A stretch of 64,000 nucleotides of DNA from an uncultured Campylobacterota bacterium (GTDB taxonomy: Bacteria; Campylobacterota; Campylobacteria; Campylobacterales; Sulfurovaceae): positions 62,001 to 126,000 of the forward strand of contig CAKZQQ010000005.1 of assembly GCA_937141405.1 (NCBI GenBank). Direction: 5' to 3'. Below are positions 38,829-39,454 of the stretch, in pieces. Positions within the stretch are counted from its first letter, which is position 1, and the number at the start of each line of letters is the position of its first letter. The position numbers and the translations under genes were made by a program. The notes below the pieces were generated by a model that saw nothing but the letters and a program-made list of their open reading frames with translations, ran no database searches and was not told where the DNA came from.

Positions 38829-38864
38829 TGTCATTGCGAGAAGCTTTAGCTTCGTGGCAATCCA
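38829..38864. repeat. Palindromic element A, copy 1
   Basis: Begins TGTCATTGCGAGAAGC, then TTTA, then GCTTCGTGGCAATCCA. GAAGC/GCTTC and ATTGC/GCAAT pair to form a bulged hairpin. The sequence resembles a dispersed palindromic family that I recall from many unrelated bacterial genomes. A degenerate second copy lies 180 bases downstream. Confidence 0.7.
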
Positions 38865-38885
38865 TATTCTATAAAGTAAACAAAT

Positions 38886-38972
38886 CCGTTCATGGTGAGC
38901 TTGTCGAACCATTATCTTCAATATCCATTACCCTTCGATAGTTCGTCAAGCTCACTTACTCAGGGCGAGCGG
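38886..38972. repeat. Palindromic element B
   Basis: Arms GTGAGCTTGTCGAAC and, inverted, GTTCGTCAAGCTCAC pair over 15 bases with one mismatch, separated by a 40-base loop region; the outer ends start CCGTTC and end GAGCGG. The motif resembles a very widespread interspersed repeat whose false translation gives peptides such as MVSLSNH. Confidence 0.7.
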
Positions 38973-39009
38973 AAAGATTACTATAGATAAAATACAAAGT
39001 CACGGTCGG

Positions 39010-39047
39010 CATATTGCGAGAAGCTTTGTCTTTGTAGCTCCATATCA
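39010..39047. repeat. Palindromic element A, degenerate copy 2
   Basis: Direct partial repeat of element A: ATTGCGAGAAGCTTT is identical, the second half has drifted (TTTGTAGCTCCATATCATC against TTCGTGGCAATCCATATTC). The hairpin arms are partly lost, suggesting an older insertion. Confidence 0.6.
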
Positions 39048-39057
39048 TCAAATAACT

Positions 39058-39146
39058 GTCATGCGAGCATCCTTGTAAAGCAGGCATATCCGCGGCGGTA
39101 CAGATAGCAAGCAGGGATATGCCGCCCGCGACTTTGTGAGCATGAC
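39058..39146. repeat. Palindromic element C
   Basis: The ends are the perfect inverted pair GTCATGC and GCATGAC. Inside, GCATATCC (39084-39091) pairs with GGATATGC (39115-39122), and flanking GC-rich blocks are also roughly inverted. An 89-base element with nested stems. Confidence 0.65.
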
Positions 39147-39155
39147 GCTTTTACT

Positions 39156-39174
39156 CCACTTTTCTAAAAAGTGG
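39156..39174. repeat. Perfect hairpin D
   Basis: CCACTTTT-CTA-AAAAGTGG, eight perfect pairs with a three-base loop. It could fold in RNA from either strand, but no T-run follows immediately. Confidence 0.6.
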
Positions 39175-39200
39175 AAAGAAGAAAATAAGAAATCTTTATA

Positions 39201-39225
39201 ACTTTTCTTTTTAGTAAAGAAAAGT
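39201..39225. repeat. Perfect hairpin E
   Basis: ACTTTTCTTT-TTAGT-AAAGAAAAGT, ten perfect pairs with a five-base loop. It lies 26 bases after hairpin D and just before element F, and the three may be parts of one unit. Confidence 0.6.
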
Positions 39226-39239
39226 AAGAAAAGAAAATC

Positions 39240-39325
39240 GTCGTTTCACAATTGTGCGGGTGTTGCTCAACGCTCGGGCTTCGCAGTGCTCGCATTCACA
39301 ACTGCACAAGAAGTGTGAAAACGAC
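39240..39325. repeat. Palindromic element F
   Basis: Outer arms GTCGTTTCACA and TGTGAAAACGAC differ by one extra base. Inner arms TTGTGC/GCACAA and GTTG/CAAC continue the stem, giving an 86-base imperfect palindrome with a GC-rich centre. Confidence 0.65.
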
Positions 39326-39417
39326 AGAGAAGCTGATTTATAGTTTAATTTAAAATATTTTAATACATGGAAGCCAAAAATTCCACTCGCTTAAAGAGCA
39401 ATTTAGGAGCTTTTTTG

Positions 39418-39423
39418 TAAAAT
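39418..39423 (+). promoter_or_regulatory. Candidate -10 box for atpB
   Basis: TAAAAT 31 bases before the atpB ATG. Downstream, ACGAC (39424-39428) and GTCGT (39447-39451) could form a weak stem enclosing the GAGGG ribosome site. Confidence 0.35.
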
Positions 39424-39454
39424 ACGACAAAATCAATAATATGAGGGTCGTTTT

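Follow-up and report, generated by a model that had tools for sequence, protein, structure and literature searches.

The row of palindromes between murJ and atpB is, with a probability of about 80%, a BIME/NIME-like mosaic of dispersed, non-autonomous, hairpin-forming DNA repeats and not a conserved RNA. We favor this reading because the units recur throughout the genome and because seven orthologous sites differ in a sister species. The block itself is of an ordinary kind, a palindromic repeat mosaic, and inside it is a composite repeat family centered on the Sulfurovaceae.

Palindromes A1, B, A2, D, E1, E2 and F occupy positions 38829-39326 of the window (the whole 64,000-nt stretch of DNA analyzed), confirming the row of different palindromic units described in the initial annotation. 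The flanking genes are transcribed divergently, as that annotation also stated, with MurJ encoded on the minus strand and ATP synthase subunit a on the plus strand. Exact inverted repeats (arms of at least 9 nt, spacer of at most 90 nt) occur at 7.8 per kb inside the block and 0.6 per kb elsewhere, a roughly 13-fold difference in density, in line with the contrast first described. The 516-nt block has a folding energy of -164.8 kcal/mol (z ~ -6 versus dinucleotide shuffles), and when folding was scored on 516-nt windows, none of the 125 other stretches of this length matched it (mean z -0.6, minimum -3.6). Fixed 120-nt folding windows proved a poor detector, because their frames cut the units. 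Contrary to what had been proposed, the block is not GC-rich relative to its flanks: GC content in 500-bp windows is 0.386-0.39 for the block, compared with about 0.39-0.42 for the flanking sequence.

The block opens with unit A1 (38829-38864, plus strand), a REP-like palindrome of the form TGTC-ATTGCGAGAAGC-TTTA-GCTTCGTGGCAAT-CCA. Unit B follows (38886-38972, plus strand), an inverted pair CCGTTCATGGTGAGCTTGTCGAACCAT ... CCTTCGATAGTTCGTCAAGCTCACTTACTCAGGGCGAGCGG whose arms at 38895-38912 and 38938-38955 are 89% complementary; related pieces are found elsewhere in the same genome (G000:C5:443447-443545) and in relatives G020, G037 and G040. The initial annotation counted two copies of A; the second, A2 (39010-39042, plus strand), is a degenerate copy that has lost the GTC tag and retains 85% identity to A1 over 26 nt. 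An A2-matching piece adjoins D at another locus, L003. Unit D (39057-39147, minus strand) is a CGTC-tagged 91-nt palindrome that reads CGTCATGCTCAC...GCATGACA on the minus strand, and is joined through an AAAAG linker to the AT-rich hairpin E1, CCACTTTTCTAAAAAGTGG (39148-39178, minus strand); E1 fits the E-AAAANCGTC pattern, found on the minus strand at G000:C5:101144-101172. A second AT-rich hairpin, E2, ACTTTTCTTTTTAGTAAAGAAAAGT (39201-39238, plus strand; pattern match at G000:C5:101201-101242), leads through a AAGAAAAGAAAAT linker into unit F (39239-39326, plus strand), a CGTC-tagged 88-nt palindrome, CGTCGTTTCAC...GTGAAAACGACA. The repeats stop short of the predicted atpB leader and likely promoter, assigned by eye (39376-39454, plus strand), whose sequence ...TTTAGGAGCTTTTTTGTAAAATA resembles, by visual comparison, that preceding atpB elsewhere in the genus.

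D, E and F are indeed palindromic, but they are not the separate units first proposed: they form two related composite modules arranged head to head, D-E1 (module 1, minus strand) and E2-F (module 2, plus strand), that are often copied together. The module order is an AT-rich hairpin E, AAAA(G/T)CGTC, a palindrome of mostly 41-93 nt, and GACA. In the 48-nt short forms of D, the outer stem varies, whereas the boxes CTCTCGAATCGC and GCTTTCAAGGGCGTTCG and the ends are fixed; longer forms, such as the one in the window, have an additional variable arm. The module pattern gave about 100 matches in 17 of 99 relatives, and fewer than 10 with a reversed control. A scan of 84,980 species returned 37 matching stretches, 36 of them from Campylobacterota/Epsilonproteobacteria records with titles naming Sulfurovum or Sulfurovaceae (most of them), Campylobacteraceae, Campylobacterales or Epsilonproteobacteria. 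In the 37th, from Sphingobacterium, no D- or F-like palindrome accompanies the match, which seems fortuitous. Among the species scanned, the module family is a composite repeat confined almost wholly to the Sulfurovaceae, of which we found no description in the literature searched.

Whole or partial units recur at many loci of their own genome (G000; 1.75 Mb, 8 contigs). Counting the window itself, the block has 30 matches there, in the combinations D-E-F, D-E, E-F, F alone, and A alone or in inverted pairs, and D-E-F pieces at unrelated loci reach 95-100% identity. The closest relative, the sister species G004, has near-identical units; in other genus members, the E joint is found with other palindromes. 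Identical D 91-mers are present at L001, L003, L006 and L009 of the genome studied and at L181 of G004, while the DNA flanking them is 83-95% identical between the two genomes, a pattern that would follow from recent copying or from gene conversion.

In G004, the orthologous sites either contain none of these units or carry different ones, and together with the dispersed copies this supports the earlier suggestion of non-autonomous elements gathered at one tolerant site. At the murJ-atpB gap, A1 and B are both present in G004 and this part is 96% identical, D-E-F is absent with about 1.3 kb of unrelated DNA in its place, and identity returns at position 39376, inside the atpB leader. By eye, the G004 gap (L062 3460-4790, G004:C83) contains a glycosyltransferase-like ORF and a small helix-turn-helix-protein-like ORF. 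Altogether, the sister-species comparison identified seven orthologous sites at which units are missing, different or reordered. Units are absent from the counterparts of L004 and L012; the counterpart of L008 has a different head-to-head dimer and that of L006 other palindromes; E2-F is common to both genomes at L010, where D-E1 occurs in G004 only; at L007 of G004, D stands in place of F; and the composite at L005 is inverted between the two genomes. L009 is common to both up to a contig end. The units are therefore neither local to this gap nor conserved as one block, with order, orientation and content all varying between sisters. We infer insertion from presence and absence, because none of the orthologous sites compared provided a clean empty site with a target duplication, and the junctions were not clean. 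On the sequences compared, the differences between sites are apparent turnover of units at tolerant places; deletion losses would yield some of the same differences, and since A, B and E alone are short, local duplication could be part of their origin.

The stems of D and F covary. We counted 39 two-sided cells in the D stems and 21 in the F stems, values reached in 0 of 500 shuffles and lost in shifted registers. Five outer-stem pairs are variable among 17 short D forms, and every change in them involves both partners, with no pair turning into G-U; the F stems (13 family members) behave similarly, one-sided changes being few. For the long D forms, apical arms of unequal length make the aligned consensus fold weaker. 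On the preferred reading, several short repeat families have accumulated between the divergent murJ and atpB, outside the atpB leader. We propose that the units spread when a folded single-stranded DNA hairpin with GTC...GAC ends is copied. The D-E1-E2-F composite could be copied whole, with parts later lost or exchanged at the AAAAGCGTC junction. A dedicated function of the units for murJ or atpB is improbable.

Which enzyme might move the units can be narrowed to some extent. It is possible, though doubtful, that the modules are lineage-restricted mobile DNA of a non-autonomous kind, copied as a folded single strand by an unrecognised enzyme outside the Y1 class; such a strand would have fixed boxes and arms that change freely yet always stay paired. 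It is unlikely that the units are moved, as GTAG REPs are, by a RAYT/TIRYT-type Y1 (HUH) transposase resident in the genome. The genome encodes three Y1 transposases, and enzymes of this class naturally act on REP-like hairpins (PMC8266576), but all three genes bear GGGGTCAGG-type inverted ends instead of these units. None of 19 further Y1 loci of relatives carries the units either, most having GTAG or other palindromes, and one of them, L129, has a canonical CGTC repeat downstream. Moreover, G006 (99% complete) bears 15 modules with no Y1 match, and modules also occur without a Y1 match in G022 and G029. Two RAYT-like genes of 184 aa (L130 and L131) are flanked by TTCCCACGG/CGTGGGAA or TTCCACCT palindromes, not by GTAG repeats.

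Descent from a degraded insertion sequence or a MITE with an autonomous parent would account for the short inverted GTC/GAC ends, the composite build and the high identity among copies, yet we consider it improbable: no parent with such ends was found among the Y1 loci or within three neighboring module pairs, which enclose ordinary genes (nucleotidyltransferase-, hexapeptide-repeat- and lipoprotein-like ORFs, by eye), and no target duplication was seen at the orthologous sites, whose junctions are not clean. A search for a phage or plasmid origin of the units found no match.

Intrinsic termination, by a GC-containing hairpin followed by a T-run, is very unlikely to be what the units represent. 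D is followed by GCTTTT on the plus strand and F by GATTTTC on the minus strand, a T-rich tract lies after each palindrome on the strand opposite to the E->CGTC direction, and most modules adjoin gene ends. At this site, however, the flanking genes diverge and no known transcript enters, and a terminator scan detected none, although its loop limit excludes hairpins this large. Across loci, 63 of 64 modules are intergenic, between convergent (20), codirectional (35; 18 plus, 17 minus) or divergent genes (8, including the window's two), and genes enter modules equally from either side (37 and 38 of 63), which argues against a strand-specific terminator, as this would predict a bias. RNA helices usually pass through G-U intermediates, so the two-sided changes without G-U in the 17 D sequences are better read as DNA pairing; from these small sets of related sequences, we infer selection that would act on a DNA hairpin rather than on a terminator or RNA. 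That the murJ-atpB site encodes an RNA regulator or a structured non-coding RNA, the latter raised as an alternative in the initial annotation, is highly improbable despite the block's RNA fold and the covarying D and F stems, given that the units are dispersed in varying combinations and orientations and change between sister species, that a promoter scan showed no excess within the block, and that Rfam gave nothing above threshold for it (weaker matches were taken as chance).

The preferred reading, a mosaic of dispersed DNA repeats, places the block near several known systems. Unit A resembles the CGTC-tagged REPs defined by Di Nocera et al. (2013), who list Sulfurovum among the hosts and assign these repeats no transposase (PMC3733652). 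It has a TGTC tag at 38829-38832 (CGTC, TGTC or CCTC in the published class), AT at the first two stem positions (ATTGC...GCAAT) and a CCA tail at 38862-38864; its loop is the 4-nt TTTA and its stem 5+5 bp with an internal mismatch, against a published 8-9 bp stem and 4-5 nt loop. Its exact pattern has 10 matches in its own genome and is present in 25 of 99 relatives, and arm lengths of A-type repeats differ in many of them. As in CGTC REPs, known from Sulfurovum NBC37-1 without a transposase link (PMC3733652), the arrangement includes intergenic head-to-head dimers, and no dedicated repeat-flanked transposase was found, the 3 own and 19 other Y1 loci being flanked otherwise. D and F, in contrast, exceed the 20-40 nt of that class (91 and 88 nt; relatives mostly 41-93), end in GACA with no CCA tail, and have fixed inner boxes, variable stems and a joined AT-rich hairpin. 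Separately, G071, from another family, has no Y1 match and contains 46 A-type repeats that share fixed TCATTGCGA/GCAATC ends around many unrelated centers, each self-complementary.

Like enterobacterial REP/BIME elements and REPINs, the units are clustered, dispersed, extragenic and non-autonomous palindromes in alternating orientation; unlike those GTAG-tagged, RAYT-linked repeats, no unit has a GTAG tag and no RAYT is flanked by units. In neisserial intergenic mosaics with dRS3, which is CGTC-1 (PMC3733652), several repeat families are likewise clustered between genes and interspersed with CGTC palindromes, but the repeat units differ, and here the hairpin-CGTC module is the recurring joint. 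TIRYT elements, which have GGGGWSAS terminal inverted repeats (PMC3733652), are present in the same genome (L059-L061) with GGGGTCAGG... ends unrelated to the block units; the ends of the three resident Y1 genes fit the TIRYT group of Di Nocera et al. (PMC3733652). Next to one of these transposases lies a short solo element that shares its GGGGTCAGGTGATGCTGATGC ends (L060 2670-2820, G000:C8), likely a non-autonomous TIRYT derivative, and a long CRISPR-like array with repeat GCTTTAACCTACTCTCAAATCCCCATTTGATATAAT directly adjoins another TIRYT transposase gene (L061 1930-3333, G000:C3).

The modules also matter in practice, as they disrupt assemblies: several G004 contigs terminate in or near them. 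CGTC-type palindromic repeats span several phyla, and the literature searched assigns them no enzyme. The Sulfurovaceae modules offer a compact system for asking how such repeats spread, with a defined joint, related species whose copy numbers range from many to none, copies that are identical at different loci, presence/absence sites, and module-rich genomes without a Y1 transposase that narrow the enzyme candidates.
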